This document shows, piece after piece, positions 21,243-36,576 of a stretch of 64,000 nt of DNA. The stretch comes from Microbacterium paraoxydans. GTDB taxonomy: Bacteria; Actinomycetota; Actinomycetes; Actinomycetales; Microbacteriaceae. A model generated the notes under the pieces. That model ran no database searches. It worked only from the letters and a program-made list of their open reading frames with translations, and was not told where the DNA came from. The stretch lies in NCBI RefSeq assembly GCF_020524545.1, contig NZ_JAIVLG010000004.1, forward strand, positions 1-64,000. The letters run 5' to 3'. Position numbers and translations under genes: made by a program. How positions within the stretch are numbered: the first letter of the stretch is position 1; the number at the start of each line of letters is the position of its first letter.

Positions 21243-21316
21243 CGGGATGTGGCGCAGCTTGGTAGCGCACCTGACTGGGGGTCAGGGGGTCGCAGGTTCA
21301 AATCCTGTCATCCCGA
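21243..21316 (+). tRNA. tRNA-Pro(GGG), complete, carried by the element
   Basis: A 74-nt gene with all arms closing: acceptor CGGGATG/CATCCCG, D arm GCGC/GCGC, anticodon arm CCTGA-CTGGGGG-TCAGG (anticodon GGG, 34-36), T arm GCAGG/CCTGT with TTCAAAT loop; discriminator A, no encoded CCA. It is 70/74 identical to the reconstructed native gene; all four differences form two compensated base pairs (5:68 and 28:42). It starts 45 nt after the broken 5' half, so the native promoter could still transcribe it. Confidence 0.95.
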
Positions 21317-21500
21317 CAGAAAAAGCCTGATGAGAGTGGATTTCTAGATGTCCGATTCTCGCCAGGCCATCTTAGCTCGCCGCTGATTCTGTGGTCCCGA
21401 TTTGTGTTTCCTATGAGACCGACGGCGGATCTTGGAGAGACTTAACTGGTCCCACTTTGTTCCCACGCCCCCTGACCCCTACAAATCAAAGTCAAGTGGT

Positions 21501-22643
21501 TTAGGAGGACCCTCCGATCCATCTGAGATGCCGGTTCGTCTGTTCCGCGGCGAGCGTGAGCTCCGTGGTGTCGGTGTGCAAGTAGCTCTTGGTCGTCTCG
21601 ATCGAGGCGTGTCCGAGGATGTCACGGACGATGTGAAGCGGTACGCCGGCGTTCGCGAACCATGTGGCTCCAGCGTGTCTGAGGTCGTGTCGTCGTAGAC
21701 CGGGGTGCCCGAGTCTTTGCACCAAGTTGGTCCAGTCGGTTGCTCGCGAGAGCGTTCCGGTGGTGAGGACCCCGCCCCGGGGCCCCCGGAGCAGCGGCTG
21801 ATCATGTTCGCGGCCGTCGGTAATGCGTCGGAGCACGGGCTCCAACGGCTTGAGGATCGGCACCCTCCGTGCTTGCCTGCTCTTGGTGGGCTTGAGGCAT
21901 AACCCGTTCGAGCCGGGGAAGTGCTGTCGTGCGATGGTGACGAGGCGGTTGTCCCAATCGATGTCGCTGACCACCAGACCTGCGACTTCGGACACTCGCG
22001 CGGCGAGAAGAGCGGAGAGGAGGACGAAGTCCCCATACGCCGCGTGAACACGACGGCACTCGTCCGCAAGGCTTCGAACCTCGCCGAGAGTCGGAATCTT
22101 GCGCGCGAGATCGGCTGTCGACGACCGTCTCCGTCGTCTTGCGCGTGTTCGTGCGGGGTTCGCGGCGATGATCTCGTCTCGCACCGCTTCGTCGAGCACT
22201 CGTGTGAGGGCTGACACGGTGTTCTTCAGTGTCGACGGCGAGCAGTCGTTTTCCCACCGGTCGATCGTCCTATCGATGACGGCCGTGCTGATCGATCGCA
22301 CGGCCAGGTGCCCCAGGGCAGGAAGAATGCGGACCCTGATGCTGGCGCGATACCCGCTCGCCGTCGACGACGGATCGAGTCCTCGAAGATACCGGTCCCC
22401 GATCTCGGCGATGTAGTCGGCGAGTGAGATCAGCGGGTTGCTCGCGATGTGCGTTCGTGACTGGAGCTGTTCCAGGAACGTTCTGGCTTCTTCCTCCCGA
22501 TCGAACGTGGCTGAGTAACTTCGCCGTTCGTGTGAGGTGGGGTCGGACCATCGGGCGCGAGCGCGGAATCGGCCGTGGCGATTCGCTATGTCTCGCGTGA
22601 GGTGTACTCCGATAGGAGGGATGTGACGATGGTTAGTGTTCAT
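21501..22643 (-). CDS. int: tyrosine-type site-specific integrase of the element
   Basis: A 380-residue integrase. Residues about 1-70 form an arm-binding-like N-terminus (GRFRARARWSDPTSHERRSYSATF), then a core-binding domain (IAEIGDRYLRGL...). The catalytic domain has Arg in AARVSEVAGL, Lys in PTKSRQARRVPI, HDLRHAGATWF, LGHASIETT and the nucleophile Tyr in KSYLHT. Start ATG at 22643. It lies 185 nt from the element's tRNA-Pro and points toward attL, the usual phage/ICE arrangement. No separate excisionase gene is adjacent. Confidence 0.93.
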   Translation of the reverse strand: MNTNHRHIPPIGVHLTRDIANRHGRFRARARWSDPTSHERRSYSATFDREEEARTFLEQLQSRTHIASNPLISLADYIAEIGDRYLRGLDPSSTASGYRASIRVRILPALGHLAVRSISTAVIDRTIDRWENDCSPSTLKNTVSALTRVLDEAVRDEIIAANPARTRARRRRRSSTADLARKIPTLGEVRSLADECRRVHAAYGDFVLLSALLAARVSEVAGLVVSDIDWDNRLVTIARQHFPGSNGLCLKPTKSRQARRVPILKPLEPVLRRITDGREHDQPLLRGPRGGVLTTGTLSRATDWTNLVQRLGHPGLRRHDLRHAGATWFANAGVPLHIVRDILGHASIETTKSYLHTDTTELTLAAEQTNRHLRWIGGSS

Positions 22644-22759
22644 CTGCTCGAAGCTGGCAGGGAAGTCGCGCTGCCGCGCGGAGGCGCTGGGGCGCGAGCC
22701 CGAGGCGGCACGCGCGACTTCGGCGCCGTCCGATACACTAGGAGTAGGCTGGCCGCGTC

Positions 22760-22948
22760 ATGAGCACCATGATCCAGATCAGTCAGCCGGCGGCAGAGTC
22801 GCTTGCTCGTTGGCGTGCGCTCAGCGATGAGCAGAAGCGCGAGGCGCGGTTCGCTGTGGTGGTTGACCGGGTTGCCGCGAGCATGGCGATGGAGAACGAG
22901 CCGGTCTCGGACGCATGGATCCAGCAGGCGAAGCAGACGGGAGTCTGA
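22760..22948 (+). CDS. small hypothetical protein, possibly antitoxin-like
   Basis: A 62-residue protein, predicted mostly helical (AAESLARWRALSDEQKREARF), starting at ATG with a TACACT -10-like hexamer 21 nt upstream. Size and shape recall antitoxins, but no known antitoxin motif is seen. A second small frame overlaps its 3' end. Function unknown. Confidence 0.5.
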   Translation: MSTMIQISQPAAESLARWRALSDEQKREARFAVVVDRVAASMAMENEPVSDAWIQQAKQTGV

Positions 22949-23085
22949 CCCAGCGGTTCGCCACAGGCCGTGGCGACCTCACCTACGCGGAGCTCGCCGA
23001 CGCGATGGCGAAGGCGCGCGGGTTCCAGGTGGCGATCAGCAGGTTCGAGGACGACTTTGCCGGGACCAGCTCCGCGATTGCCTGA
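22915..23085 (+). CDS. possible small overlapping gene or remnant
   Basis: A 56-codon frame from ATG 22915, overlapping the previous gene by 34 nt in another frame. Its middle (GDLTYAELADAMAKARGFQV) looks like a real helical protein segment. No ribosome binding site is obvious. It could be the partner of the 62-residue protein or the stump of a longer gene; low confidence. Confidence 0.3.
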   Translation: MDPAGEADGSLTQRFATGRGDLTYAELADAMAKARGFQVAISRFEDDFAGTSSAIA

Positions 23086-23228
23086 CGAGCCCGCTCCGCG
23101 CCCGCCGCCACATCCGCCGGAATCTTCACGTTCCTAGCCAAGTAGTTCGGATCGCAGCTCGTCCACTATCGATCCACTCAACGTCGAATGGTTCTCGCGA
23201 GAGAATGGATACCGGAAGGGATCGACTG

Positions 23229-23456
23229 ATGGTCAAAGGCGACATCGAGACGTACTTCGAAGACGGGGTCTGGAAGAACCGACCGCAGGGCAACGAGCGG
23301 GCGTCCAATACTGCGCCCAGGAAGTCGGAAGCTCAGCAGAAGGGCCGAGAGATGGCAAAGGACCGCAAGGTCGAGCACGTCATCAAGAAGAAGGACGGCA
23401 CGATCGGTCAGCGCAATTCGTACAAGAAGCCGGACCCTTATCCGCCGAAGGGATAG
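23229..23456 (+). CDS. DUF2188-type small protein
   Basis: A 75-residue basic protein. The C-terminal half (VEHVIKKKDGTIGQRNSYKKPDPYPPKG) fits the DUF2188 pattern of a short beta-hairpin with a conserved dGtI...nSY...P.P motif. GGAAGGG at 23213-23219 is a good Shine-Dalgarno 9 nt before the ATG. An open frame upstream joins it in phase but its sequence is not protein-like. Function unknown; such proteins are common in accessory DNA. Confidence 0.65.
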   Translation: MVKGDIETYFEDGVWKNRPQGNERASNTAPRKSEAQQKGREMAKDRKVEHVIKKKDGTIGQRNSYKKPDPYPPKG

Positions 23457-23497
23457 CGCGGCGCGCGCGTCTCACGGCATTGTCGGAGGACGGGTGG

Positions 23498-23680
23498 ATG
23501 CTTGAGCGAGAACCAGTCCACCCCAACGAGACGAGACCCATGTGCAGCGAAGAGATTGAGCGGAAGTTTGAGGTCCCTATCCCGGAAGGTGTGAGCGCTG
23601 CCGAGAAAGAGCGCCTCATTCAGGCCGCGACCGACCGCGAGGTCGACAAGTTGCTCGACGACCTCGATCTGTTCAAGTAG
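23498..23680 (+). CDS. small hypothetical protein
   Basis: A 60-residue acidic, helical protein (SAAEKERLIQAATDREVDKLLDDLDLF). The ATG at 23498 is chosen because a strong GGAGGA lies 7 nt upstream (23485-23490); ATG 23540 and TTG 23480 are alternatives. It precedes the 370-residue gene by 19 nt and may be co-transcribed. No family recognised. Confidence 0.5.
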   Translation: MLEREPVHPNETRPMCSEEIERKFEVPIPEGVSAAEKERLIQAATDREVDKLLDDLDLFK

Positions 23681-23699
23681 CTCGCTTTCTGACCGGCAG

Positions 23700-24812
23700 A
23701 TGGCTCAACCTGACTACTCGTGGCTGCCTCTCCACCAGCAGCATGTCGCCTACACGCTTGCCCACGCCGATAGCCTCATCGCCCAGGCGGCGGAGGTGCT
23801 CTTCGATTACCTCAAGCCCGGACCGCTTGAGCTTGCCAACGTTGCGGATGGTGATCTCGCGCATGTCACCGTGGCCGGCGTCGCGGTGCTTCCTTCTGCA
23901 GTGGCGCGGTTTGCTGCAGACGCTCTGACGCAGATTCGAGCCGCGATCGAGCACACGATCTTCGCCGAGGTCGAGTACCAGCTCGGACGAGGACTCACCG
24001 AGGAGGAGGCTCGGCGAATTGAGATGCCGGCCTGTCTGACGGAGGACGATTTCAAGAAGTGGCTGGCGGGTCGTCGTCGTCCCGAGCTGGAACCATTTCG
24101 TACCGGCTCAGTGCTGGTTGGCAGGATTCGGGATTTGCAGCCGTACCACCGCCGCGACGTCGACCAGCATCCGCTACGCGTTCTCGCTGAACACACCAAC
24201 CTCGCCAAACATCGCACGCCCGCAGTTGCGGCGACGCTGATCGGCGCCGTCATCCCCGACTGGCAGGACCCGACGCTTGTTCTGCCGACCGGCGAAGATC
24301 GGCCGCTGGTGGCGGGTGATGTCCTGGCGAGCGGCCCGCGTGATAAGTACGTGCCGCTCTCGATCTGGCCGAAGGTGTCAATCCAGCGACCGCACAGCGG
24401 CACCTGGCACGTTCTCATGACGGAGCTCGGGGAGATCGAAGAGTGGGTACGCACCGTCGCGATTCCGCACTTGATTCTCGGACACCACGACGCCGACCCA
24501 TTGCCGCCCCAACTCGACACCACCGTCGGGCACGTTGACCTCCCTGCCGCCCTCTTGGCCGCCGGTCATGTCCCCGCGGCCACCCGCTCGTCGCAGCACA
24601 TTCAAGCTGACTTTATACGTGACGAACTAGCCGAGACCCTCGCGATGCACCCCGTCAAGTCCGACCCGGAGGTCATCCGAAAGTGGATCGAGACGCTCGA
24701 CGACATCGAAGTGCTTGAGCGACATGACCGATTGGCGGAGCCAGCCAGTCGGCGGGATCTTCCCGGCGTGGATCGAGTCGTGCGGAAGTCGATCGCGGAA
24801 GCTTCCCAGTGA
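23700..24812 (+). CDS. hypothetical protein (370 aa) of the integrative element
   Basis: An uncharacterised soluble protein. The N-terminal half is helical and His-rich (SWLPLHQQHVAYTLAHADSL) and carries a conserved-looking block (ADALTQIRAAIEHTIFAEVE, RIEMPACLTEDDFKKWLAGRR, RDLQPYHRRD, LAEHTNLAKHRTPA). The central part is beta-rich. The repeated His/Glu/Arg positions hint at an enzyme or a HEPN-like helical domain, but no diagnostic RxxxxH motif of HEPN is evident. The gene converges on the 1320-residue gene. Confidence 0.6.
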   Translation: MAQPDYSWLPLHQQHVAYTLAHADSLIAQAAEVLFDYLKPGPLELANVADGDLAHVTVAGVAVLPSAVARFAADALTQIRAAIEHTIFAEVEYQLGRGLTEEEARRIEMPACLTEDDFKKWLAGRRRPELEPFRTGSVLVGRIRDLQPYHRRDVDQHPLRVLAEHTNLAKHRTPAVAATLIGAVIPDWQDPTLVLPTGEDRPLVAGDVLASGPRDKYVPLSIWPKVSIQRPHSGTWHVLMTELGEIEEWVRTVAIPHLILGHHDADPLPPQLDTTVGHVDLPAALLAAGHVPAATRSSQHIQADFIRDELAETLAMHPVKSDPEVIRKWIETLDDIEVLERHDRLAEPASRRDLPGVDRVVRKSIAEASQ

Positions 24813-24834
24813 TCCATCGTTGTTGAGGCGAGTC

Positions 24835-27800
24835 TTATCCGTCGTCGCCCATTCGTTCCGCTTCTGCGTCGTTACGGCGGGCTTCATGCTGATAGCTATC
24901 CGCGATGCCCCGCAGGATGCGAGCCGTGCGTGGCCACCGTGTGGCGATCTTGCTAGCCATCTCCCGGTACTGCTGTTCGAGCACCCGTTCCTGATCGCCG
25001 CCATCGAACACGCCACGCGAAGTCACACCACGTTGATTGGTCTTGCCGATGTGCAAGCCCGTATCGATCCGTGCATTGCCAACGTTTTCGATGACTTCGC
25101 GAACGGCTTCAGCTGGCCAAACCCCGTCTACCCCGACAGGGCTCGAGGCAAGTACCTGCCCGATCTGCTCGTCGCCGATCGATGCTCGCCCACTATCCGC
25201 GAGGGCAAGGCGGGCGGCACGTACCCATTCCGTGAGGTGGTCGGCGTCGATACTGCCGTCGTTTGCGAGTCCGGGGAGCGTGCGCCATTTGCGGAGCACT
25301 GAGAAGGATAGGTGCGCGAAGGCCTGCTCCTGTGGAGTGGGCGTTCGCTTGGGCTCCCCTTCCGCGCGGAAGATGGCGCTCACCATGTTGACGAAGTCAG
25401 TGGGATCCTTACTCAGCGCCCGATAGAGGGCGCCCGAAGGCTCATGGTCGTGGACAAGTTCAAAGAACATGAACTCGTAGCCTGGGAGCTCGTCGTCGTC
25501 GGGCACCCGTTGTTCCATGTATTCCAGAAGTTTGCCGACGTAGTAGCCGCTCATCGTGGTGTTCTGGGGAGGCTCCGTTCCTCGACGTAGTGCGTCGAAC
25601 ACCTCCTTGACGAGACTGATCTCCGGTTCCTGATGCTCGTGCAGCATGATGCTCAGAAGTGCCATCGCCTCCCAGGGGCGACCATGTTGAACGAACCGCC
25701 GAACACCCTCCGCCCGATCGTCAGAGGCCGCAGCGAAGGGCTGAGCTCGCTTCCAATAGGCCTCTTCGAGTCCTTCGCCCAGCGAGGACACCTCAGTCCA
25801 GTACTGGCGGGAGAGGGGAACTGCCTCCATCAGAATCTCTCGAGTTTCGGCCTCCTGAAGCGCCGGGCTTGCGAAGGCTTCCTTCAGCCACTCCATCCCG
25901 CCTTCGTGGATCTTCACGCTCACGTAGTTCAACGCTGCTTGATTCAAGTTGGGCTCCGATGAACTCAGCCACCCGAGAATCTCTTGATCTGGTGCGTTGG
26001 CCGTGCCTGCGAGCAGCCGTCCCACGACATGGGGTGTCTTGACATCGATGGTGAGCGAGCGCAGTGCATCTGAGCCGAGCACAAGTACGTGGTCGAGTGC
26101 CTCGCGTTGAAGTCGCGCGAGTTCGATGTCGTATCCTTCGTCGCCCAGCTTGAGATTGGGTAGGTGAGCCCGCCAGTCGAAGAGACTGGAGAACCGTCGC
26201 CCGTCCTGGGTGGGCGTGAGGGCCCCGGCAAGTTCGCGGAACGCGACCACGTCCTCAGCGGGCATAGCCCACTCGGCGTCGGAGTACTCCTCGTGCCGAT
26301 CTGCCTCGCTGCTCAGCGTTTCCCAAACCGCATACACGTCTTCGGGCGACCACTCTTGAGCGCTGATGACCTCGCGGAGCTTGGCTAGGACTGCGACCCG
26401 TTCCTGGCGCGGTAGTCCATCGATCTGCGGAACAAGCTCTTTCCAGCGTGCTGCGTCGGTCCCAGCAGCGGCGGTGACGAGGATCACGAGCTCATGAACG
26501 AAATGCCCCCAGTCCGCATAGGTGACCGATTGCCGGATGGGCGACCAGTCGCGATACGTCGGAGCGTGCGGCTGGAAAGCAACTGCGTGACTCTCAGGCC
26601 AGACGCCGAGGGCAAGCTTCCAGCCGACATCGGGTTCGCGCTGCATCAGGCGCGCGATGACGGCGAGTTTGTCGTCGACGCTCGCGCCGCTCTGAGGCAA
26701 CCAGCCCGCGACGACATTCTGCAGGCTCTCGATCGGACGATTGCTTAGCCGACCACCGGGATCCAGTGCGGACAGCCTTCCAAGAAGCGCTGCCGCCCGA
26801 CCGAAATAGGTCGGCGACCAGCACAGCGTCTCGAGTGCCCACAGCAAGTTGGGGTGTGGCGACGATGGTCCGAAAAGAGTGTCCGCGCCGCTGTCTTGGA
26901 ACATCGTGCGAAGAATCGGGTCGGTGCGGTCCAAGTCGAGTTCAACCGCATCCTGAAATACCTCCGGGGCGGCTTCCGCCAAGCTGGGCAGGACACTGGC
27001 CAGTCGAGCCCAGGTCGTTCCTGTGTCGTCGGCGTTCGCAGCTTGAAGTAGATCGTGAACGAGCCGGCTGACCCGCCCTTGCATGGTTAGGTCAGCGGGA
27101 AGCTCGACGTCGCTCGCGGCGGCGAGCGCTAGTCCGTCCGCCACGCCTTTCCTAAGCGTCTCCGAATGGGTCGGGTTGGTGCCTTGGGCGCTCGCGGTCA
27201 GACGAGCGACGGCATCCATGCCCTGGTAGGGGTCCGGTGCCAACAGGACATCTGCGACAACCTCGGCCCACCTCGCTAGTTCACCATCAGGGAGCGTCGG
27301 TAGGAGGAGAAGAGCAGCCTCTGCCGGCGAGGTGACACGCCAGGTGCCGCCCGAACGAACGAACGGTGCATCCGCACGGCCGGCGAGACTTTTCAGAAGG
27401 CGATCGATATCGTCGCGTGATCGTCCGGTCAGCCTTTCGATCACTGCGAGGTCGCCTTCAGCGTTCGTCCACGAACCAACCAGAACGAGCGGTGCGAGGA
27501 TAGCGGCTTTATCGGTATTGGTGACCCACTCTGGGGCTCGGAAGCGTGGCTCGCGCGCGATCGAACGAACGAGCGCGGGCACACTGCGACGCGCGAGGGC
27601 CACCATCGCCTCGGCCTTGTTCGAGTCGGACACGACGGCCTTAAGCGCCTCGCGAGCGGTTGCGCGGTCTACCTTGCGGAGCTCAATCTTCTTGGCGTTT
27701 CGAATGATGTCGCCTGGCTCGGCGATCAAGATCACCCGATGTCCGTTGTCGACGGCGGCCGCGAGGTCGGGCGCATCGGAAAACAACGGAACGAGAATCA

Positions 27801-28797
27801 GAGGAGACCGCGATTCGGTCAACCGCTGCCAGGCGGCGCTGTCGGTGACAACAATGGCCCGGTACAGAAGGTCGTTCTGCGCAGCCAAGGCGGCGAACGT
27901 GAAGGCAAGGGCCTCATCGCGCCACGGCGCTTGAATGGCCAAGATCGCATCGCCGGATCCTGCAGCAGTAAGGATTGCACGCAACTCGTCGGCCTCGGCG
28001 GTGCGTCCAGCCGCGAAGAAGTCGGCCGGGAGCGCCATCGTCGTGCGACCCTGAAAAGCCTGCCACCACCGCTCGATGGTCTGTGCGTCTCGCGGTCGGT
28101 AGCCTAATCGCTCCGAAATCCAACGATGTACGGACGGCGACTCTTGGAGCCAACTCTCCAGAGTGTGCGCATCGATGGCCTTCACGTCAGAGAACTTCTT
28201 CTCGGCGGCGCGATCGGAAGCCCACGCGATACCGCCAGCCCAGTTCCTCGGCGTGGCGAAGACAAAGGCTGAACTCGCGTCAGCGGGGAGCGCGAGCACC
28301 CGCTTGTCGTAGTCGCTCTGAGCCTTTCCTTTCGGGTTGGCGTCCGTGCCGAACTCAAAGCGCAGCTCGCCGACTGGAAGGTACGCACTACCTGCAGACG
28401 TGGCGGTGCCGTCCCAACCTGAGGCAGCCACACCCTCGTGGGCACGAACTTGCAGATTGCTGATCCCGGGAGTCACCGCGAGAAGACGACGCATCAGCTC
28501 GGGAAAGGCGGTCTTCGCATCATCGCGGGCAGCCCAAGTGTTCAGTTCGCTGGCGGTGATGAGCTCAGGCGCGTCCGTGCGGAGCGCGGGTGCGACCGAC
28601 GATGCGCTTGAGCCGCGTTCTTTCTGAAGGCGCAGGACCTCTTCTCGAGCAAAACGATGCTGCGTCGAGCCAGGAACACGAGCTGACACAAGGGTGCCTG
28701 CTGTGACCCAGTTCCTGACGGTGTTTTCGTGCACCCCAAGGAGCTTCGCGGTCTCACGAACGTTCAAGAATGGCTTCAGTCTATCCTCACTTTCCAT
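24835..28797 (-). CDS. 1320-aa protein: excisionase-like HTH + nuclease-like domain + STAND-like body
   Basis: Residues about 9-62 form a MerR/excisionase-type winged helix (FLNVRETAKLLGVHENTVRNW...HRFAREEVLRLQ). Residues about 90-230 resemble a restriction-endonuclease-like fold: ASGWDGTA, LRFEFGTDANPKGKA with spaced acidic and Lys residues, FVFATPRNW, and HTLESWLQESPSVHRWISERLGY. Residues about 265-460 have an NTPase layout with a degenerate P-loop region (AILAIQAPWRDEALAF lacks GxGKS) and ILVPLFSDAPDLAAAV. The remaining 800 residues are long, helical and Trp-containing, like repeat sensor regions of STAND proteins. I know similar 1200-1300 residue proteins without a name. A defence role is inferred. 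Promoter appears leaderless. Confidence 0.7.
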   Translation of the reverse strand: MESEDRLKPFLNVRETAKLLGVHENTVRNWVTAGTLVSARVPGSTQHRFAREEVLRLQKERGSSASSVAPALRTDAPELITASELNTWAARDDAKTAFPELMRRLLAVTPGISNLQVRAHEGVAASGWDGTATSAGSAYLPVGELRFEFGTDANPKGKAQSDYDKRVLALPADASSAFVFATPRNWAGGIAWASDRAAEKKFSDVKAIDAHTLESWLQESPSVHRWISERLGYRPRDAQTIERWWQAFQGRTTMALPADFFAAGRTAEADELRAILTAAGSGDAILAIQAPWRDEALAFTFAALAAQNDLLYRAIVVTDSAAWQRLTESRSPLILVPLFSDAPDLAAAVDNGHRVILIAEPGDIIRNAKKIELRKVDRATAREALKAVVSDSNKAEAMVALARRSVPALVRSIAREPRFRAPEWVTNTDKAAILAPLVLVGSWTNAEGDLAVIERLTGRSRDDIDRLLKSLAGRADAPFVRSGGTWRVTSPAEAALLLLPTLPDGELARWAEVVADVLLAPDPYQGMDAVARLTASAQGTNPTHSETLRKGVADGLALAAASDVELPADLTMQGRVSRLVHDLLQAANADDTGTTWARLASVLPSLAEAAPEVFQDAVELDLDRTDPILRTMFQDSGADTLFGPSSPHPNLLWALETLCWSPTYFGRAAALLGRLSALDPGGRLSNRPIESLQNVVAGWLPQSGASVDDKLAVIARLMQREPDVGWKLALGVWPESHAVAFQPHAPTYRDWSPIRQSVTYADWGHFVHELVILVTAAAGTDAARWKELVPQIDGLPRQERVAVLAKLREVISAQEWSPEDVYAVWETLSSEADRHEEYSDAEWAMPAEDVVAFRELAGALTPTQDGRRFSSLFDWRAHLPNLKLGDEGYDIELARLQREALDHVLVLGSDALRSLTIDVKTPHVVGRLLAGTANAPDQEILGWLSSSEPNLNQAALNYVSVKIHEGGMEWLKEAFASPALQEAETREILMEAVPLSRQYWTEVSSLGEGLEEAYWKRAQPFAAASDDRAEGVRRFVQHGRPWEAMALLSIMLHEHQEPEISLVKEVFDALRRGTEPPQNTTMSGYYVGKLLEYMEQRVPDDDELPGYEFMFFELVHDHEPSGALYRALSKDPTDFVNMVSAIFRAEGEPKRTPTPQEQAFAHLSFSVLRKWRTLPGLANDGSIDADHLTEWVRAARLALADSGRASIGDEQIGQVLASSPVGVDGVWPAEAVREVIENVGNARIDTGLHIGKTNQRGVTSRGVFDGGDQERVLEQQYREMASKIATRWPRTARILRGIADSYQHEARRNDAEAERMGDDG

Positions 28798-28801
28798 ACC
28801 A

Positions 28802-28830
28802 TTAGTATGTCAGATTGTGGACTTTGTGTA
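28802..28830 (-). promoter_or_regulatory. candidate leaderless promoter of the 1320-aa gene
   Basis: On the minus strand, TACACA (28830-28825) and TACTAA (28807-28802) are spaced by 17 bp and end 4 nt before the ATG at 28797. Transcription would start at or next to the start codon, and no Shine-Dalgarno is visible, consistent with a leaderless mRNA, common in actinobacteria. Confidence 0.45.
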
Positions 28831-29083
28831 CATAGGGTGCATCACCGGGCGGTTGGCCTGTGCGTGGGCCACCACTGGGTCTCATCGCCACTTCGGCCCG
28901 CAGAAGCGCAAGGCGCACACTCTGCTGGGCGAGGCCGAGCTCCCGCGCGACAGCCGTCAAGGACTTGCCCGCCTTGTAGAGGACGACTGCCTGGACAGTC
29001 TGGTTGGGCGTGATTGGCTGTCGGCGCATGGGCACGTTCGTGTCTTTCAGTAGGCGCAGGACCGTTAACTTCCCAATGCCGTA
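28802..29083 (-). pseudogene. recombinase/HTH C-terminal fragment
   Basis: About 93 codons read YGIGKLTVLRLLKDTNVPMRRQ, then AVVLYKAGKSLTAVARELGLAQQSVRLAL and AEVAMRP. This is the double helix-turn-helix tail seen in serine-recombinase-associated HTH proteins of Microbacteriaceae. The upstream in-frame sequence does not look like protein, and there is no recombinase catalytic domain, so it is a truncated relic or at most a 75-residue HTH protein from the internal ATG. It ends inside the promoter of the 1320-aa gene. Confidence 0.55.
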
Positions 29084-29226
29084 ACGCGGTGCGACGGCGG
29101 GCGGTGTCCTCGCAATCGGGCCTCTGCGTGGGATGCCGCGCGTGTGGGCGAGCGAGAAGAAGTTCTGTCTGCGCCCCACGGGAGAATGGACTCGACGCGA
29201 ACGCGAGCAAGCAGAGGGGAGCACGA

Positions 29227-30996
29227 GTGCTGAACTGGATCCGACGAGCGCTGAACCTCGCAACAGACGCCGTGCCCGTACCGGCAAGGTCCGAGAACCT
29301 CCACCAAGCGGTGCTTGGAGAGGCGGTTGTCTACTTCGCCCATACCGTTCCGACTTCGAAACCCATTGATCTCGGTAAGGCGGCGAAGCAACTCCTTGAT
29401 ACTGAACTCGCAGTGAGCGCAGCGTGGCCATCGGACAGGTCAGCGCGACTGCCTCCGTCCTTGGAGAGGATTGAACGAGACCTGACCCGCCTTCAACGGC
29501 TCAAGACATGGACCGACAACCTGAACGGGTTTCCGTCCTTGGTGAGGGGCGTTTTCTCGCATCCGGTGACTGCGTTCCGAGTATTCCGATTGCTTAAGGT
29601 AAAGCGCAACGACGTTCCGGACGAGGACGAGGAAAACTCGTCGCTCGAAACTGTGCGTGTCGAGGTCGAGAAGATCCTGGTGGACGCACAGAAGGTCACT
29701 CTTATGGAGAAAGAGATAGACGCTGATCTCTTCTGGAGCGAAAGAGAAGACCTCGACGCTTATGTGCGGTTCTTCCTGCGCGCGACGCAGCACACCATCC
29801 GAATCGGTGACAAGGAAGTGTCGATCACCCTTGAGCCTCGGCTGATGCTGCACCGTGAGGGTGTAGTGCAGATCACCGTCGGCGTGCACCTACCTCCAGG
29901 TTGCACGCCGGCAGATGCGATCGACGCATCCTTCCCAGGGTCACCGCTGTTCCACTCGTCGCGAGTGCCCGAACCGTATGCGTCGCGCGGTGCGAAATGG
30001 GCCGGAGGCGAGTGGGCAGAGCAGCCAGAGGGAGGGGTCAGGGTTCGAGTCTTCGATCACGAGGAACCCGCATCGCTGTACGAATGGCTCGAAGTTCTTG
30101 TCGGTCGGATCTTGCGGGGAATCGGCGCATTTGTCGGCGGCGCCTCCTATACCTATCCGATGATTATGGTCCAGGCAGGAGCATGCTGTACCGACTGGGC
30201 CGACAACCACGCCCGGGACATCGTGCACCTCGCGATTCGCAAGGTTCCGCGCGGTAGTGATCGGGTCACATTGGACCCCGGTCCCAACCTGAGCATTCAC
30301 GCTGGTATGCAAGTTCACGCCACCGGCGGTTCTGTGCTGCTGCTTCACCTGCGCACTTGGCGCGCCGGCATTCTGGACCTCCACCACACTCTCCTGTATG
30401 AACGAATCGGGCTTGTCTACGTGCGGTTGCGCCGGCTTGAACAGCGGATCTCAGACTTCCAGACGGGCAAGCGAGACATACTGCGGACCTATCGCAGAGT
30501 GTTGGAACTCGAGAAGGAAGTGCGTGGCGCGCATTATCGCGCAGGTACAGCACGCGACATCTCTCGCCACGTCCTGACCGCGCTGGGTGCCTTCGAGATC
30601 CTCGAAGTTGTCCGCAACGGTGCGAGCATGCTCGGTGAAAGGGCGAGCACGCGCGCGAGCCTACGTGCCGCGCGCGCGGCGAACAGGTTCGCACTGCTCG
30701 GGTTGACGGTCGCAATATTCGCAGCGATTCCGGCGATCCCGTCCATCCTCATGCTCATAGAGCAGCAGCGCCAGGCCGATCCGGAAGCAGGCTTCTGGTC
30801 GCTGATGCAGACCCTCGCAACATCACCACTTCTGCTGTCCGCCCTGATACTTGGCGCGGCTGTGCTTTATGGCGTAGCGGTCTTCTGCGTGCTCGCGTTC
30901 CGTGTGATCCGGTACCTCGTCAGGTTGCGCAAACGGGGGTACGTCTCACGGGTGGAAGGGTACGAGATCGTCCTCGACGAGCCGGTTGATGCCTGA
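29227..30996 (+). CDS. large membrane-anchored protein of unknown function
   Basis: A 589-residue protein starting at GTG 29227, 4-5 nt after AGAGGGGAG. Residues 1-490 are soluble, with charged helices (ERIERDLTRLQRLKTWTDNL) and beta segments (VQITVGVHLPPGC); a coiled-coil-prone region precedes the membrane part (RLRRLEQRISDFQTG). Near the C-terminus are two membrane segments (FALLGLTVAIFAAIPAIPSI and LLLSALILGAAVLYGVAVF) followed by a basic cytoplasmic tail. It converges on the kinase gene. A membrane effector or sensor paired with the kinase is possible, but this is inference. Confidence 0.65.
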   Translation: MLNWIRRALNLATDAVPVPARSENLHQAVLGEAVVYFAHTVPTSKPIDLGKAAKQLLDTELAVSAAWPSDRSARLPPSLERIERDLTRLQRLKTWTDNLNGFPSLVRGVFSHPVTAFRVFRLLKVKRNDVPDEDEENSSLETVRVEVEKILVDAQKVTLMEKEIDADLFWSEREDLDAYVRFFLRATQHTIRIGDKEVSITLEPRLMLHREGVVQITVGVHLPPGCTPADAIDASFPGSPLFHSSRVPEPYASRGAKWAGGEWAEQPEGGVRVRVFDHEEPASLYEWLEVLVGRILRGIGAFVGGASYTYPMIMVQAGACCTDWADNHARDIVHLAIRKVPRGSDRVTLDPGPNLSIHAGMQVHATGGSVLLLHLRTWRAGILDLHHTLLYERIGLVYVRLRRLEQRISDFQTGKRDILRTYRRVLELEKEVRGAHYRAGTARDISRHVLTALGAFEILEVVRNGASMLGERASTRASLRAARAANRFALLGLTVAIFAAIPAIPSILMLIEQQRQADPEAGFWSLMQTLATSPLLLSALILGAAVLYGVAVFCVLAFRVIRYLVRLRKRGYVSRVEGYEIVLDEPVDA

Positions 30997-31052
30997 GCGC
31001 GGCAATAATACGAGATCTCGGCGCAACCCCTGATCGCCGGCACGTCCGGGAC

Positions 31053-32351
31053 CTAGAGCATCCAGCGGCGAAGCGTCGTGCTTGAAATCTCGTTCCAGTC
31101 GTTCTCGAGGATGGAACGAACATACCGCTCAGTGGATGACGCGACGACAGCATTGAGCATGGCCTGCGCCGCAGCTTCATGCGACAGCGCCTTTAGCCAA
31201 CGCGCGATGGCGTCGCCGACCGGGTATTGATCGCAGGCTTGCGCTGCGGCGAACAGCGCGCTTGCCAATGACTCCGCAAGATCAAGCCTTCGTTTGCGCA
31301 TCAGGTGGCGGAGCACATCGAGAAGCCACAGCAGGGGAGGGCGGAGCCCCTCGCGTTCAAGCCCGCCGACGTCCTGACCGTCTCTGAGGAGATCACACAT
31401 ACTCTCGGCGAACTGCGCCATCCCCTCCGGGTCGATATCGAACCAAGTGCTGACGGTCGAGCGCTCGATGCGGCGAAGTTCGGGAAGGAACAAGGCGCCG
31501 TTATCTCGATGTGCGAGGGCGAAATCGTTGAACGCCTTGATATCGATTGGGTTAGTGAGGAGCCGCTCGAATTGGGTGCTGAGCGGGCCGCTCCCGCTTT
31601 CGATCTCACGTTCCATTGCTTCGAGCATGTCGTCGACAGTCGGATATCGCTGTGCCGGGGCCCGGCGGGTAGCGCGTGTGACCACTGTGCGAAATCTCTC
31701 GGACGGGAGCGGTACGTGCACGGGCGTAGGGAGCTCGCCGCTCATGATCCAGCCCACGATGGCGCCGAGGCTGTACACATCGGTTCGCGGGGTCGCGGAG
31801 TGCGCGTCGGCATGTTGCTCAGGAGCGGCCCATCGCTCGGTTCCGACCAGGTTGCCTTGCCGGGTGAGTTCTGCGGTCGTCGATCCAGGGGCGTTACGAG
31901 CAACACCGAAGTCCGACACTACCCATCGGGCACCGTTGTCATCATCAAGCCACAAGATGTTCTGCGGCTTCAGATCACGATGGACGCGACCCTCCACATG
32001 GAAACCGCGTAGCCCATGAGCAACCGCGCGCACAACAGCAAGCGCGAGCTCCTCACGGTCACTCAAGGAGAGGCCATCAATAGCGGGGGTGAGCTCACCC
32101 CTTGCGATTGGCATCGTGTACCACTCACCATCTGGGTCGACGTCGACCACTGACATTACGTTCGGACCAGCGGCCGCCCGCATCGCCTCGACCTCACGTG
32201 TGAACCTGCGTTCGACGTTTCCCGCGCCACGGCGCATCTTGACCGCATACTCAATCCCTGTCGTCAGATCGCGGCCGCACCCGACGATCGCATGCTCGGT
32301 GGGTGAGCCGAACACGCCGAGGATCTCGTACCGCTCGCTGGGGCTGCTCAT
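31053..32351 (-). CDS. Ser/Thr protein kinase, soluble
   Basis: A 432-residue protein from ATG 32351. The kinase domain spans residues about 8-275: Lys38 in EYAVKMRRG, HRDLKPQN at 124-131 (catalytic Asp126), DFG at 147-149 and APE at 176-178. The Gly-rich loop is weak. The C-terminal about 150 residues are helical and unrelated to PASTA or membrane domains, unlike the housekeeping PknA/PknB. Location in an integrative element next to other defence-type genes suggests a role similar to phage-triggered kinases such as Stk2, as inference. The target is not visible. Confidence 0.88.
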   Translation of the reverse strand: MSSPSERYEILGVFGSPTEHAIVGCGRDLTTGIEYAVKMRRGAGNVERRFTREVEAMRAAAGPNVMSVVDVDPDGEWYTMPIARGELTPAIDGLSLSDREELALAVVRAVAHGLRGFHVEGRVHRDLKPQNILWLDDDNGARWVVSDFGVARNAPGSTTAELTRQGNLVGTERWAAPEQHADAHSATPRTDVYSLGAIVGWIMSGELPTPVHVPLPSERFRTVVTRATRRAPAQRYPTVDDMLEAMEREIESGSGPLSTQFERLLTNPIDIKAFNDFALAHRDNGALFLPELRRIERSTVSTWFDIDPEGMAQFAESMCDLLRDGQDVGGLEREGLRPPLLWLLDVLRHLMRKRRLDLAESLASALFAAAQACDQYPVGDAIARWLKALSHEAAAQAMLNAVVASSTERYVRSILENDWNEISSTTLRRWML

Positions 32352-32501
32352 GTGCACATTCTCCCGTGGTTTGCTTCGACTCCAACTCGGCCATAGTTGC
32401 CCCGGCTTCGTATTGGTGCGCCAACCTCTTGGCCAACTCCCTCACAATGATGGAGGGTGCCACTAGCCTGAGCCCTCCAACCCGAAGTGAGGTGATTCAC
32501 G

Positions 32502-32930
32502 GTGACTTCCGACGCATATCAGTTCCCCGTCTCGATCTCGAGGCTCAGCAAGGGGGAGACCTCGCGTGAGCCGCAGAACATGCGCGCGATCAAGTGGCTC
32601 CTCGAACAGCCTGGCCGACCGTTGTCGTTGTGACGCCACAGAAGCAGTTCCACGGCGACAGCCTGAAGCGCCTGGTGGTGCAGCCTGGAGTGCAGCATCT
32701 CAGTTGGCGAGGGCTATCGACGGGATCGCTTTCCAGTCGTCGAGTGCTTTACGCCTGGCCAGACCGCAAGCACCTGAACGAACGGTGGGATGTCGATGCG
32801 GCCGCGCTCGTGGTGATTGAGTGGAATGAGGACGAGACAGTCGAGTGGATCGAGGACGCCAAGCCAGTCCCCGGTCTACGCGGAGAAGCACGATGGTCGA
32901 ATCGTCGGCGTCTATGTGAACGTGGCCTGA
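32502..32930 (+). pseudogene. hypothetical gene with two compensating frameshifts
   Basis: Starting at GTG 32502 (GAGGTGA upstream), the frame reads SDAYQFPVSISRLSKGET... IKWLLEQPGRPLSL and hits a stop at 32631. Protein-like sequence continues in the -1 frame (VTPQKQFHGDSLKRL ... LNERWDVDAAALVVIEW). Near the CCCC at about 32869 it returns to the first frame (VYAEKHDGRIVGVYVNVA) and ends at 32930. Net shift is zero over 143 codons. The DUF3800 gene starts 22 nt later, so they were probably an operon. Either a decayed gene or two sequencing errors. Confidence 0.6.
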
Positions 32931-32951
32931 TTCGCGCGTCGATCCGCCAGA

Positions 32952-33749
32952 ATGTGCTTCGTGCACTGGTTCATCGTCGACGAGACAAACCGCGACTACG
33001 CGGCCAACCACTTCTTCATCGTCGGCGGCCTGGTGTTCACCGCCGAGCAGATCGAGCCGGTCGATCAGGCCGTGCGTGAGATCCGAGAGCGCCACGGCTA
33101 TCTCCAGGGCGACAGCTTCAAGTTCGATACCCGCGCTCGCCCGGAGCAGGTCTCTATTGCGGAGTCGACTGCTGCGAAGGGCGAACTCATCGCGGCGTTG
33201 CAGGACATCGGCGTCCGGATGATCACATACGTGATCTTGCATGACCTGTGTATGAACCAGACCTACGACGTCCGAATGAACTTCGCCCTGAACACGCTCG
33301 CCTACGCCTACCACTCCCTTCTTGCGGAGGAGCGCGCGACCGGCGTGATGCTCATGGACCGGGACAACGACCGATACGGCCACCTGGAGAGCTTGTTCCA
33401 GACCGGGCTCCAGTTCCCGGGTGGTCGCACGTACCGTCTTGATTACCGGATAAAGCTCTTCGGCATGACCAACGACAACGCGTCGCACTTGAGCAGCGCA
33501 GCCGACATCGCGCTCGGCGCATTCAGATACTGCGTAAACACGGCTGGCGGATGGGGACGCGACGCAGTCGCTCGTGGCATGTTCCCAGGAGTATCCAGTC
33601 TGATGTGGGGCGTCGAGCAGGGAGACGTTCGCCGCATTGGAGGCTACGGATTCCACTCCCGGCCCCAGCGGGTCGGCAAGCAAGAGTTCCGAGACCTCTA
33701 CGACAACCTCCGGACTGGGCTGATGGCCTACGCGAACGCCGAGGACTAG
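32952..33749 (+). CDS. DUF3800 family protein
   Basis: A 265-residue protein. The start HWFIVDETNRD and FFIVGGLVFTAEQ matches the DUF3800 opening (DExx...ff.vgGl.v). LMDRDNDRYGH and TNDNASHLSSAADIALGAFRY supply further acidic positions, consistent with the RNase H-like fold proposed for the family. DUF3800 genes are frequent in phages and defence islands; biochemical activity is not established. Complete, in contrast to its upstream neighbour. Confidence 0.75.
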   Translation: MCFVHWFIVDETNRDYAANHFFIVGGLVFTAEQIEPVDQAVREIRERHGYLQGDSFKFDTRARPEQVSIAESTAAKGELIAALQDIGVRMITYVILHDLCMNQTYDVRMNFALNTLAYAYHSLLAEERATGVMLMDRDNDRYGHLESLFQTGLQFPGGRTYRLDYRIKLFGMTNDNASHLSSAADIALGAFRYCVNTAGGWGRDAVARGMFPGVSSLMWGVEQGDVRRIGGYGFHSRPQRVGKQEFRDLYDNLRTGLMAYANAED

Positions 33750-33915
33750 CCTCCGAGCGCCACAACCGGTGCGGGTGTAGTCCTCGCGGCTGCGATGTGC
33801 GCGGAGAACGCGGTGCGGTGAGCGCTGTAGTGGCGCTTGCGCAGGTGGGCTTAGACCTTGTTGTGACGGCCTCCGACTCGAGGCCCATCGCCACAGACAG
33901 CTCGTACATCGTCAG

Positions 33916-34421
33916 CGAGCGCGACTCGATCAACGACGATGTCGTCTTCGACGATCGAGCTGGTCAAGCAGGTCGAGATCAACGTCGACTACATCCTGAT
34001 GCTCGTCGAGAAGTACCGTGCCAGCTTCGGCGACGGCAAAGATATAGAAGTCCGCGCCCAGATCTCCCGCGTGGTGGACTCGAGCCCGAGCCTCCGCTCG
34101 AAACGCGACCTCGTCGAGTCGTTCGTCGACTCGGTCTCGACGGACGATACCGTCGATGAGCAGTGGCAAGCTTTCGTGGCCGCCAAGCATGAGGCAGAGC
34201 TCGAGGCGATCGTCGTCGAGCAGAAGCTCAAGCCTGAGCAGACCCGCGCGTACGTCGAGGCGGCCTTCCGGGATGGACAACTCCGCACAACGGGCACAGA
34301 GATCACCCATATCCTGCCGCCGGTGTCTCGCTTCAACCGCGAGGCTGGTCATGGCGACCTCAAGCGGCGCGTCGTCGAAGCCCTGACGGTCTTCTTCGAC
34401 CGGTTCTTCGGTCTCAGTTAG
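33916..34421 (+). pseudogene. 3' remnant of type I restriction subunit hsdR
   Basis: Residues read DSINDDVVFE-IELVKQVEINVDYILMLVEKY, then SSPSLRSKRDLVESFVDS, and end with a basic/aromatic tail (LTVFFDRFFGLS). This is the C-terminal helical domain of EcoR124-type HsdR, which contacts the methylase. Only about 170 of some 1000 residues remain; the motor and nuclease domains are absent. An extra C at about 33952 breaks the join between DDVVF and EIEL. Without the nuclease it cannot act in restriction. From ATG 33939 a 160-residue frame is open. It overlaps the next gene's stop by 4 nt, tail to tail. Confidence 0.75.
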
Positions 34422-36049
34422 GACGCGGTCGGTGGGGAGCTGACGTCTTCGACCGGTACGCGCGCGAGCGCGATCTTCGTGAAGCCGAGCCGGTTCAAGT
34501 CGCGGACTGTTTGCATAAGGGTGAGTCGGCTGAAGAACGGAAGCCACTCGATGCCCTTCGCCTTCGAGTTCGCGATCACTGCGTAGGTGACGATGACCTT
34601 GTCTCGTTCGGCGGCTGCGCCGTTGGGCGGCACCAGTGCCAGCCAGCTCGACGCGTCTGCGGACCCGGCTGCTTTGGTTATGGCCGCTCGCACTTGGTTG
34701 CGAAGCTGGCCATCGACGAGCGTTTCGGCCGAGACGTGCCCCTGCGCGAACAGGTGGCTCAGCGTGGACGAGCGTGACTTTCGCTTGACGTGGATCAGTG
34801 ATCCGTCGGTCGCGATGAGGTCGCAGAATTCGATTCTCGTGGTTGCGCCGCTCGGCGCGACCAATTGCCTGTCGAGGAGAGCAAGTTCGGCCGATCCTGC
34901 TGCTGCCCGTGTGTTGTAGTCGCCTTCCGACTCACCGGGACGTCCAGGCGGGAGTGCAACCGTCATTTCGGGTATCGCGGAAACTACCGAGTCCACCTGC
35001 TTCACGAGCGTGTTAGCGATCTCGAACCATCGCCCCTCGACGAGGGCATAGAGCTTGTCATTGACTCGCTGTTCGGACACGAGGCACTGGTACACGCTCC
35101 AACGGTCAACGGCTTCAGCGCTGCTGATGAACTTGACAGCGACCTTCCGCTGCTTGAGCTGCCCGACGGTCGTGTCAGCAGTCTTTGTCACCGGCTGCTG
35201 AAGGTATCGGTCCAGGTCGAGTTCGACGAACTGCGTCTGGCGGCGGGTAGGCGCGATCAGGAAGTACTCGATATCCTCCCAATCGAGGTTTTCCGGCATA
35301 GCCATGTGCGTCGAACTCGTGTCACTCGCCCTGAGCTGATCGACCAGTTGAGCATCAAGACGCTCCACGAGCGTGGGATCCTTGACTTCAGCGAGATGGT
35401 CTACCCACCCGAACGCGGCTTGGTAGTTGGTTGCGGTGTAGTGACTGTAGATATCGCGAAGCAGCTTCGGGAGATCCGTGACAGGTGACGCAACCCCGAG
35501 AACCAAGGCGTCTGCGCCGCTCACGCCCTTGTATCCCGTAGCCGCAGGAGCGATCCCGGTCACCGCCCGCACGATGTCGCGGAGAACGTCCACTCCGAAC
35601 GCTGGAAGCTCGGCCGTCCGACTGGTCTGCGTATTCTTCGACACCACCATCTCGTCGAAGAGCTTCGTGTCGAGGCTACGGATCTGCTTCTCATCGATCA
35701 GGTTGAGCGCAACCTTGAGGCCGAAGCGTCGTTCGATCTTGGCCTGATCAAGAAAGCTCCGGCCGTAGCCGAACGTAAGTGCGAAGGTGTGCTTGTCTAC
35801 CTGCAGTACGAGGAGCCCAGAGGCCGAAGCTGACTGCACACCGTGGATGCCGCCCTTAATGGCCGGCTCGACGTACTTGGCCCAACTCGGCGTGCTCGGG
35901 AAGTTCTTCTTGGAGTAGAAGCGGCCGGTAAGGCCGGACGCGTCGGCGAGTTCACTGATCTGCAGACCCGGCCCGGCATCGTCATCGATGGCGTCATCGA
36001 CCTGGTCGACGTCCCGCAGCAAGAAGATGGTCAGGCGTTGAGTACGCAC
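34418..36049 (-). CDS. TIGR04141 / DUF6119 family sporadically distributed protein
   Basis: A 543-residue protein beginning at GTG 36049 with GAGGAGG about 10 nt upstream. Hallmarks are the central HTFALTFGYGRSFLDQ block and the late CDLIATDGSLIHVKRKSRSSTLSHLFAQGHVSAE. Both match my recollection of the TIGR04141 (DUF6119) family, which is patchily distributed in accessory DNA and defence islands. The function is not established; the conserved Asp, His and Lys residues in the second block suggest an enzyme, possibly a nuclease. Last gene before attR. Confidence 0.72.
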   Translation of the reverse strand: MRTQRLTIFLLRDVDQVDDAIDDDAGPGLQISELADASGLTGRFYSKKNFPSTPSWAKYVEPAIKGGIHGVQSASASGLLVLQVDKHTFALTFGYGRSFLDQAKIERRFGLKVALNLIDEKQIRSLDTKLFDEMVVSKNTQTSRTAELPAFGVDVLRDIVRAVTGIAPAATGYKGVSGADALVLGVASPVTDLPKLLRDIYSHYTATNYQAAFGWVDHLAEVKDPTLVERLDAQLVDQLRASDTSSTHMAMPENLDWEDIEYFLIAPTRRQTQFVELDLDRYLQQPVTKTADTTVGQLKQRKVAVKFISSAEAVDRWSVYQCLVSEQRVNDKLYALVEGRWFEIANTLVKQVDSVVSAIPEMTVALPPGRPGESEGDYNTRAAAGSAELALLDRQLVAPSGATTRIEFCDLIATDGSLIHVKRKSRSSTLSHLFAQGHVSAETLVDGQLRNQVRAAITKAAGSADASSWLALVPPNGAAAERDKVIVTYAVIANSKAKGIEWLPFFSRLTLMQTVRDLNRLGFTKIALARVPVEDVSSPPTAS

Positions 36050-36497
36050 CTTGGCATCACCTCCTCGTTGACGGCTCTTGTGAGATTATCGAAAGCGCTC
36101 CATTCTGGCGGCGTTGACACGACTGCCGCTGCGAATAACAGAGCAGAGTTCGCGCAGGTGTTGCCGGCATGACCTCGGCGTCGAATCGCCTCCGTCGACA
36201 GCGCAGGCGGCTCGTGCGGGAGGACCGGCAGTCCTCGACCTGAGCGACTGCGGACCAGTTCCGCCTCTGTCAAGGGAACGCCTCCCGTACCTGTGTGTAG
36301 CAAGCGACGTACACAAAGTGAAGGAAGGCAGGTGCGAAATGAACCTCGGATGCTTGCCAGCGAGTAAAGCGAGCGCCATTGCCACTACCAAGCGCCGGGA
36401 CCTGGCCGGGACCTGACGCATGCAACGCATGGTATGAAACGCGCCCTCTGCGCAGCAGAGGGGCCCAGAAAGCGCGGAAAGCGCATGATCCGGCTAC
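36050..36497. other. 448-bp right-end region without a convincing gene
   Basis: Between the DUF6119 gene and attR I see no supported gene. One short frame (36339-36416, 25 codons, AAGGAAGG upstream) starts MNLGCLPASK but has no family. The region likely holds the DUF6119 promoter (minus strand) and integrase arm sites. Confidence 0.4.
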
Positions 36498-36504
36498 CTG
36501 GGGG
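36498..36504. other. right attachment core (attR), 7 bp
   Basis: CTGGGGG, identical to the attL core. To its left is element DNA (GATCCGGCTAC); to its right is the native tRNA-Pro 3' half. Confidence 0.8.
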
Positions 36505-36539
36505 TCAAGGGGTCGCAGGTTCAAATCCTGTCAGCCCGA
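36505..36539 (+). pseudogene. 3' half of the disrupted native tRNA-Pro(GGG)
   Basis: Thirty-five bases: anticodon 3' strand TCAAG, variable loop, T arm GCAGG-TTCAAAT-CCTGT, acceptor strand CAGCCCG and discriminator A. TCAAG and CAGCCCG pair perfectly with the CTTGA and CGGGCTG strands at 21159-21190, and less well with the element's tRNA. It is followed by the terminator at 36547. Confidence 0.92.
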
Positions 36540-36546
36540 CCGAAAC

Positions 36547-36576
36547 GCCCTGGTGGAAGGATTCTTTCACCAGGGC
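36547..36576 (+). terminator. native tRNA-Pro terminator
   Basis: A 9-bp stem GCCCTGGTG / CACCAGGGC with a 12-nt loop and a T-rich downstream side, 7 nt after the tRNA 3' half. It was probably the terminator of the intact tRNA-Pro transcript. Confidence 0.8.

Follow-up and report, generated by a model that had tools for sequence, protein, structure and literature searches.

A putative autorepressed, Avs-like sensor-nuclease without a recognisable ATP-binding loop in a tRNA-Pro island of Microbacterium paraoxydans

In a 64,000-nucleotide stretch of the Microbacterium paraoxydans genome (assembly GCF_020524545.1, contig NZ_JAIVLG010000004.1, positions 1 to 64,000; hereafter the window) we analysed a gene for a 1320-residue protein in which an N-terminal helix-turn-helix (HTH), a PD-(D/E)xK nuclease fold, a STAND-like core and a long helical superhelix follow one another (Table 1). 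We propose, with a probability of about 0.63, that this protein is an autorepressed sensor-nuclease of the Avs/NLR type that works as one protein and without nucleotide switching, probably against phages. In such a scheme the C-terminal ARM/HEAT-like superhelix would recognise a protein of the intruder, by analogy with Avs4, and recognition would free or cluster the N-terminal nuclease, which would then cut DNA. The STAND core may serve as a scaffold or lever only, since its ATP-binding loop is gone in every aligned member of the family, and the HTH would repress its own gene through a 9-bp direct repeat beside the start codon, thereby keeping the level of a toxic nuclease low.

The gene is an uninterrupted open reading frame (ORF) with an ATG start, as a preliminary description of the window had reported, but it lies on the minus strand, the plus strand of 24835-28797 containing many stops in the single translated frame. 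Because full-length homologues exist, with identities from 95% down to about 24%, and because the ratio of nonsynonymous to synonymous divergence (dN/dS) is 0.20-0.24 across the whole gene (window versus four close relatives), we conclude that the ORF, single-copy in its own 3.58-Mb genome, is a real gene.

AlphaFold2 modelling of residues 1-560 (67 family sequences; mean predicted local distance difference test score, pLDDT, 93.0; predicted template-modelling score, pTM, 0.83) and of residues 400-1320 (70 sequences; pLDDT 91.3 and pTM 0.78 for the best model, 82-84 for the other four) yielded a predicted structure in which both the nuclease-like domain and the STAND-like body that had been postulated from the sequence are seen. 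When the N-terminal model was compared with the PDB by Foldseek, the only four hits with E ≤0.001 were Avs4 (2.1e-5 and 6.9e-4) and chains of the Avs5 filament (4.8e-4 and 6.2e-4), and the next hits included Dark, NLRP9, FokI, BldC, phage Xis and Apaf-1. The order of parts, an N-terminal effector, a STAND core and C-terminal helical repeats, is likewise that of Avs4 and Avs5. VIA-align, read such that Z values within 1 are a tie and missing matches do not count as evidence, aligned the model with FokI (Z 8.7; aa 76-222, 135 residues, 4.0 Å) and MspJI (Z 8.4) as well as with CED-4 (Z 8.8; 269 residues, 5.1 Å) and EfAvs5 (Z 8.8; 278 residues, 5.2 Å), the last two scoring on a par with AAA+ proteins, for example ClpA (Z 9.9). 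The C-terminal model resembles the superhelices of PP2A-A, importins and CAND1; this all-helical arrangement is common, so the likeness is no proof of kinship.

Sequence libraries add little: outside the HTH, Pfam, NCBIfam and PADLOC gave just sub-threshold hits for the window protein. Six relatives yielded nothing convincing with Pfam or PADLOC, two of three relatives scanned with NCBIfam had no match and the third a weak antitoxin hit, and a PDB sequence profile search with the query A1 returned no significant hit. In one of the six relatives (L041), residues 533-646 weakly match PD-Lambda-4_A in PADLOC (E 0.0023, 13.6 bits), a model that the window protein does not match; a distant kinship of the helical body with PD-Lambda-4 is possible.

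Conservation was counted over 67 aligned members, the window protein included. In the nuclease domain D129, G130, E148 and R166 are present in all 67 and D162 in 62, while the canonical lysine position is taken by G150 (glycine in 58/67) and a lysine in the following helix, K158, is kept in 64. Migration of the lysine into that helix is known from other PD-(D/E)xK families (PMC1913061). The domain looks intact but unusual, and its residues, set on the predicted fold, suggest that it cuts DNA.

The preliminary description had also noted that the P-loop (APWRDEALAF, aa 290-299) is degenerate and that nucleotide use may be lost or altered. The degeneracy is confirmed; it is a trait of all 67 aligned members rather than decay of the window copy. 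None of them has a Walker A motif (GxxxxGK[ST]) at this site, where the consensus reads A-x-S-x-[DE]-[ED]-A-x-A-F and position 295 is E in 56 and D in 11 members. Bare GKS triplets occur in three relatives (L061, L071 and L102, in the last within the loop and with the first glycine missing), and L103 carries GxxxxGKT near residue 75, outside the core. The Walker-B position, 337, is acidic in 0/67 and P in 45, with acidic residues one to four positions further on in 5, 16, 36 and 37 members, respectively. R265, in the position of the STAND 'GR' motif, is invariant (67/67). The core as a whole is dispensable, because in seven members of a viral/enterobacterial type (four of them nearly identical) another N-terminal module replaces residues ~80-410 and because one 931-aa relative (L112:9908-12700), from which both nuclease and NTPase core are absent, consists of a short 'HSGAGHNIARD' segment followed directly by the body. 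That the replacing module of the 1182-aa enterobacterial type is DUF4297/Cap4-like, an idea formed by eye, was not supported by Pfam, NCBIfam or PDB sequence searches.

Inactive STAND domains are not a new idea, since iSTAND domains (PMC7159879) and Caulobacter LypA, an ATPase-domain protein without Walker A/B residues that its authors argue may bind ATP (PMC13236601), are already described. The iSTANDs resemble the present family in having effector-type domains N-terminal to a STAND domain that is inactive, but belong to three-gene MoxR-vWA systems that are almost absent from actinobacteria (PMC7159879). In our data neither MoxR nor vWA was found among the first 25 of 136 Pfam families matched by 140 ORFs flanking homologues, nor among 10 ORFs scanned in and beside the genomic island that carries the gene. 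In the parts of the open-licence literature searched, no stand-alone family with a dead STAND core of this type is named. One candidate relative, GiPD474, is ParA-like and has a Walker A motif, and is hence unrelated (PMC12724215).

The HTH at the N-terminus is recognised both by Pfam (HTH_17, aa 10-61, E 2.4e-9) and by NCBIfam (excise, aa 11-55, E 2.6e-7), each above cut-off, and its modelled fold matches 6ama, 6amk and 4j2n (Foldseek probability 1.00), in agreement with the excisionase-like module proposed earlier and with a BldC/Xis-like fold. Its standing within the protein needs correction, however. A FastTree phylogeny of the body (88 rows, 85 of them different) requires nine changes of N-terminal type and places XRE-type HTHs in three separate positions (three gains, or fewer gains plus losses), an HTH is not found in 51 of the 88 members, and 43 rows have the nuclease module without a recognised HTH; three further plasmid loci have HigA-like N-termini (only the HTH class of the window protein comes from a library; all others were judged from the N-terminal sequences by eye). 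To judge from these sequences, the HTH is an exchangeable add-on and, being exchangeable and not found in most tree members, is not part of the sensing core.

The first description had envisaged that this HTH binds the protein's own promoter or the DNA of an invader. For the former a likely site was found, the 9-bp direct repeat beside the start codon, whose occurrence among relatives goes with the type of HTH; the latter is not supported. Within one mismatch, CACAAAGTCCACA precedes the start codon in 15/20 HTH_17-type genes, 0/17 XRE-type genes and 0/54 others (those lacking an HTH or having other N-termini), the expectation from single-base shuffles being 0.02 at two mismatches. A palindrome, TCATAT-N5-ATATGA, is found conversely in 9/17 XRE-type and 0/20 HTH_17-type genes (others: 0/54 at one mismatch, one at two), against an expectation for the XRE type of 0.22 at two mismatches. 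For these counts identical upstream stretches and rows with fewer than 120 bases in view were dropped, and related genes are not independent. In new sequences the repeat was exact in the one HTH_17-type gene and the palindrome was within one mismatch in three of four XRE-type genes, and neither motif was present, at up to three mismatches, in four further new loci whose type was different or unclear. In 14 stretches chosen for the motif, autocorrelation was strongest at a 9-bp lag (0.373; 0/500 shuffles as high), with lag 11 (0.307) also above all shuffles and lags 7 and 8 above all but two. The -10-like hexamer, picked by eye, lies so close to the ATG that the transcript may be leaderless. 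BldC and phage Xis share with the family the HTH fold and a 9-bp direct-repeat site, putative in the family, yet BldC is a free-standing protein of 68 residues, whereas the HTH is here fused to a nuclease receptor.

Between the window and its close relatives the HTH codons differ by a dS of 0.86-1.09, compared with 0.11-0.21 for the whole gene, while the encoded protein stays alike (dN 0.07-0.11); pairs among the close relatives are also less alike across these codons, to a lesser degree. Silent divergence far above that of the rest of the gene extends over window positions 28520-28857 (minus strand), comprising the HTH and the region upstream. It is possible that HTH and operator were exchanged as a unit in the window copy.

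A bolder variant, which we consider doubtful, is that these proteins are a widespread class of bacterial immune receptors in which nucleotide switching was abandoned and DNA serves as an off-switch: the HTH would park the receptor on its own promoter, and binding of an intruder protein by the superhelix would release the complex. Were this so, release would at once free the nuclease and de-repress the gene, making detection and amplification a single event, and separate lineages would have built the switch independently with different HTHs and operators.

Copies of the gene with 92-95% nucleotide identity occur in Propionicimonas (L023), Tessaracoccus (L024), Pseudoclavibacter (L025) and Agrococcus (L026). 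Their match to the window extends from 24,687-24,805 to 28,828-28,831, covering the gene with about 34 bp upstream and 30-148 bp downstream (the comparison with L026 covers just 154 bp upstream and 1.8 kb downstream). Beyond the gene the window shares with them only a tRNA-Pro, in Pseudoclavibacter; these near-identical copies sit in different contexts, and the gene appears to have been transferred as a unit. The Pseudoclavibacter tRNA-Pro (L025:23108-23183) is 97% identical to that of the window and lies about 9 kb from the gene copy, with flanks that are otherwise different.

Among themselves, L023 and L024 have 12.3 kb in common, and a further 4.3 kb downstream is common to L025 and both of them (88-89%). 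L026, like the window, has nothing but the gene in common with these three, and the close relatives do not represent four separate contexts. The 4.3-kb stretch encodes, on the same strand and 218-263 nt past the family gene, a 1389-aa protein with an intact Walker A motif (GPAGIGKT) that is homologous to Avs2 of PDB 9o4e (E 2e-86, aa 178-997); an Avs2 homologue is thus the next gene downstream in three of the four closest relatives. By tblastn the Avs2-like protein was found neither in the window nor in L026 nor in ten further loci, and a search of the window's own genome, run without a positive control, gave no match either. An ORF of at least 900 aa with a Walker A pattern lies within 1.5 kb in just 5 of 93 family loci (L023, L024, L025, L079 and L088). 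The Avs2-like gene therefore accompanies some of the nearest copies but is not an obligatory partner. In L088 the family gene is preceded, about 220 nt upstream and on the same strand, by an open frame of 1270 residues with a Walker A pattern (GLSGVGKT), possibly another active companion.

These companions bear on the reading that the protein is a nucleotide-dependent receptor of the Avs type after all, either binding ATP through an unrecognised, divergent site or relying on the switching of a partner, for instance the Avs2-like neighbour. The STAND/AAA+ fold of the core, the invariant R265, the Walker A motif of the gene next door in L023, L024 and L025 and the example of LypA, which may still bind ATP without Walker A/B (PMC13236601), speak for it. 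We nevertheless regard it as unlikely: the loop lacks Walker A and keeps an acidic residue in every aligned member, position 337 is acidic in none, some members lack the entire core or carry another module in its place, a large Walker A ORF is a neighbour in just 5 of 93 loci, and the window's own genome, searched without a positive control, gave no match to the Avs2-like protein. In PaAvs5 the Walker A motif is required for immunity (PMC12931631), and in this respect Avs5 differs from a family that has lost it in 67/67 members.

HTH outputs are long established among STAND proteins, MalT being an example, and the output of AfsR and MalT is transcription. The window protein might accordingly be a STAND-type transcription regulator whose output is the HTH and whose nuclease-like domain is a dead remnant, a reading to which the good BldC/Xis match of the HTH, the likely operator beside the gene and the known architecture of AfsR, a SARP domain joined to a nucleotide-binding oligomerization domain and TPR (PMC10936776), lend some colour. 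Like AfsR and MalT, the window protein joins an HTH to a STAND core and to repeats; it differs in that a nuclease module follows the HTH and in that the HTH is dispensable. We find this quite improbable, considering that the D, E and R residues of the nuclease are invariant, that almost half of the tree rows keep the nuclease module without a recognised HTH while HTH types are exchanged, and that the sole genomic copy of the site within two mismatches is the protein's own promoter.

The protein belongs to the family phrog_18693, whose profile matches residues 79-1314 (E 3.7e-147), starting past the HTH, and also matches four related loci scanned alongside; PHROGs assigns this family no function. 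Homologues were found in 22 of 72,556 plasmid records (18 covering at least 80% of the query at a single locus), 1 of 50,697 phage records and, with a further 11, in IMG/VR. With a single peptide pattern, GTDB species genomes gave at least 582 matching stretches, and the best 80 among them were taken on; by their titles these best 80 include members of Actinomycetota, Pseudomonadota, Bacteroidota, Bacillota, Planctomycetota, Chloroflexota, Acidobacteriota and Nitrospirota, many of them metagenome-assembled genomes, and also include the archaeon Methanosaeta. Closer to home the family is sparse: 13/199 genomes of the same bacterial family matched, just 7 of them (own included) beyond the HTH, as did 7/396 genomes of the order and 6/394 of the class (E 1e-20; own genome counted) and 4/396 of the phylum (E 1e-10 with a body profile; own genome counted), and none of the 17 same-genus genomes listed in the order-level search. 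The 1182-aa relative is present in 8 of 5426 complete Escherichia coli genomes, seven with at least 80% of the protein, and the single locus inspected adjoins prophage genes. The distribution is patchy and mobile, on plasmids, islands and prophages, in line with the accessory character first proposed and not confined to core genomes. In Hymenobacter a truncated N-terminal paralogue (L063:9992-11203) stands immediately before a full-length copy (11234-15079) as a tandem pair.

That the gene is instead an addiction or maintenance module of mobile elements, a toxic nuclease under its own repression that keeps plasmids and islands stable while phage defence plays a secondary part or none, is the least probable of the readings considered, for although it is carried by such elements, autoregulation is typical of toxin-antitoxin loci and one XRE-type relative (L072) weakly matches a HipB-like antitoxin model (E 2.1e-5, below cut-off), no antitoxin gene is common to all close copies, with which the window shares only the family gene, a superhelix of 830 residues is large for an addiction toxin, and the Avs2 homologue directly downstream in three close copies makes addiction less likely and defence slightly likelier.

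Defence against phages is the most likely role of the sensor-nuclease that we propose. Of 13 plasmid stretches that carry annotation, 8 contain a neighbouring gene labelled as Shedu, SIR2, AbiEi/AbiEii, abortive infection, toxin-antitoxin, restriction endonuclease or type I restriction (flanks of 4-8 kb, gene names read by eye, no control; three more records have no gene table there). PADLOC at 1e-10 matched 133 families in the flanks of 31 loci (140 ORFs), compared with 30 families in 129 control ORFs from 12 chosen regions of four genomes of the same bacterial family.

Several points weigh against our proposal. The PADLOC comparison of flanks is coarse: several families match one protein, ORFs above 900 aa were excluded and the control is phylogenetically unmatched, so that the enrichment gives weak support. 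The structural likenesses are limited, with Foldseek TM-scores of at most 0.30 by query length (among the 50 rows listed) and modest VIA-align Z values of 8-10. No library names the family: PADLOC, whose library contains Avs models, gave only mad1 and MTase_II (E ≤1), both on the HTH, leaving the rest of the protein unnamed. The catalytic lysine lies outside the canonical E-x-K place, so the domain could be inactive or binding-only. Both upstream motifs were counted in the sequences from which they were derived, the repeat is missing in 5/20 HTH_17-type and the palindrome in 8/17 XRE-type genes, and a promoter scan found no sigma-70 consensus before the gene. The Avs2-like neighbour could mean that some copies act with a partner. 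Finally, no phage-resistance experiment on any family member was found in the literature searched.

NLR/STAND immune receptors are generally thought to require an ATP/ADP switch. A family that spans many bacterial phyla and archaea and has lost the P-loop in all aligned members would provide a natural test of receptor switching without nucleotides, and exchangeable autorepressor HTHs, two of them with a putative operator type of their own, may represent a general means of quieting a toxic immune nuclease. Since the protein is encoded by one gene, these ideas are easy to test. Despite its Avs-like architecture, we do not file the family as Avs, because it lacks the Walker motifs by which STAND NTPases are defined; in the parts of the literature searched, no Avs with an N-terminal HTH is named.

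Table 1. Coordinates of the gene, its predicted domains, its putative control elements and associated features (window positions unless a locus is given).
Feature	Position	Strand	Basis or remark
1320-aa HTH / PD-(D/E)xK / pseudo-STAND / ARM-like gene	24838..28797	minus	stop codon 24835-24837
HTH, BldC/Xis-like, aa 10-61	28615..28770	minus	Pfam, NCBIfam, model
PD-(D/E)xK nuclease fold, aa 82-230	28108..28554	minus	predicted model; D129, E148, K158, D162, R166 conserved
STAND/AAA+ core without Walker A/B, aa 235-418	27544..28095	minus	predicted model, alignment
P-loop site, aa 285-299 (ILAIQAPWRDEALAF)	27901..27945	minus	position 295 acidic in 67/67
Probable winged-helix-like domain after the core, aa 428-490	27328..27516	minus	position and secondary structure only
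ARM/HEAT-like all-helical superhelix, putative sensor, aa 491-1320	24838..27327	minus	predicted model
Putative operator, 9-bp direct repeat GTACACAAAGTCCACAA	28815..28831	minus	sole genome match at ≤2 mismatches
-10-like CATACT, 6 bp before ATG	28804..28809	minus	by eye
att-like direct repeat, 58 nt, at 3' part of tRNA-Pro (tRNA 21243-21317)	21275..21332	plus	
att-like direct repeat, opposite island end	36498..36555	plus	88% identical copy
Tyrosine integrase of island	21501..22643	minus	
1389-aa Avs2 homologue	L023:14220-18389 (also L024, L025)	same as family gene	match to PDB 9o4e

The gene is carried by a 15.2-kb island at tRNA-Pro(ggg), window positions 21275-36555, with a G+C content of 0.622 versus 0.685 and 0.681 on its two flanks. 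Microbacterium elymi (L033) has 11 kb of this island in common at 94%; its copy of the gene (L033:10041-13964) is frameshifted, possibly a pseudogene or a sequencing error.

Other genes of the island include a small DUF2188 protein (23229-23456, plus strand; PADLOC PDC-S16, E 5e-19), a Ser/Thr kinase-like protein (31053-32357, minus strand) whose best PADLOC match is PD-T4-6 (E 1.8e-32) and which generic kinase models also match, and a nearly full-length DUF6119/TIGR04141 'sporadically distributed' protein (34418-36049, minus strand; E 5e-147). A 160-aa ORF (33939-34421, plus strand) matches a type I restriction R subunit (EcoR124_C, E 1.3e-32) over the subunit's C-terminal part alone and looks like a stand-alone fragment of it. 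Divergent to the 1320-aa gene, a 613-aa protein (29155-30996, plus strand) had no Pfam, NCBIfam or PADLOC match; it lies inside the stretch common to M. elymi and, by eye, likely has membrane helices near its C-terminus.

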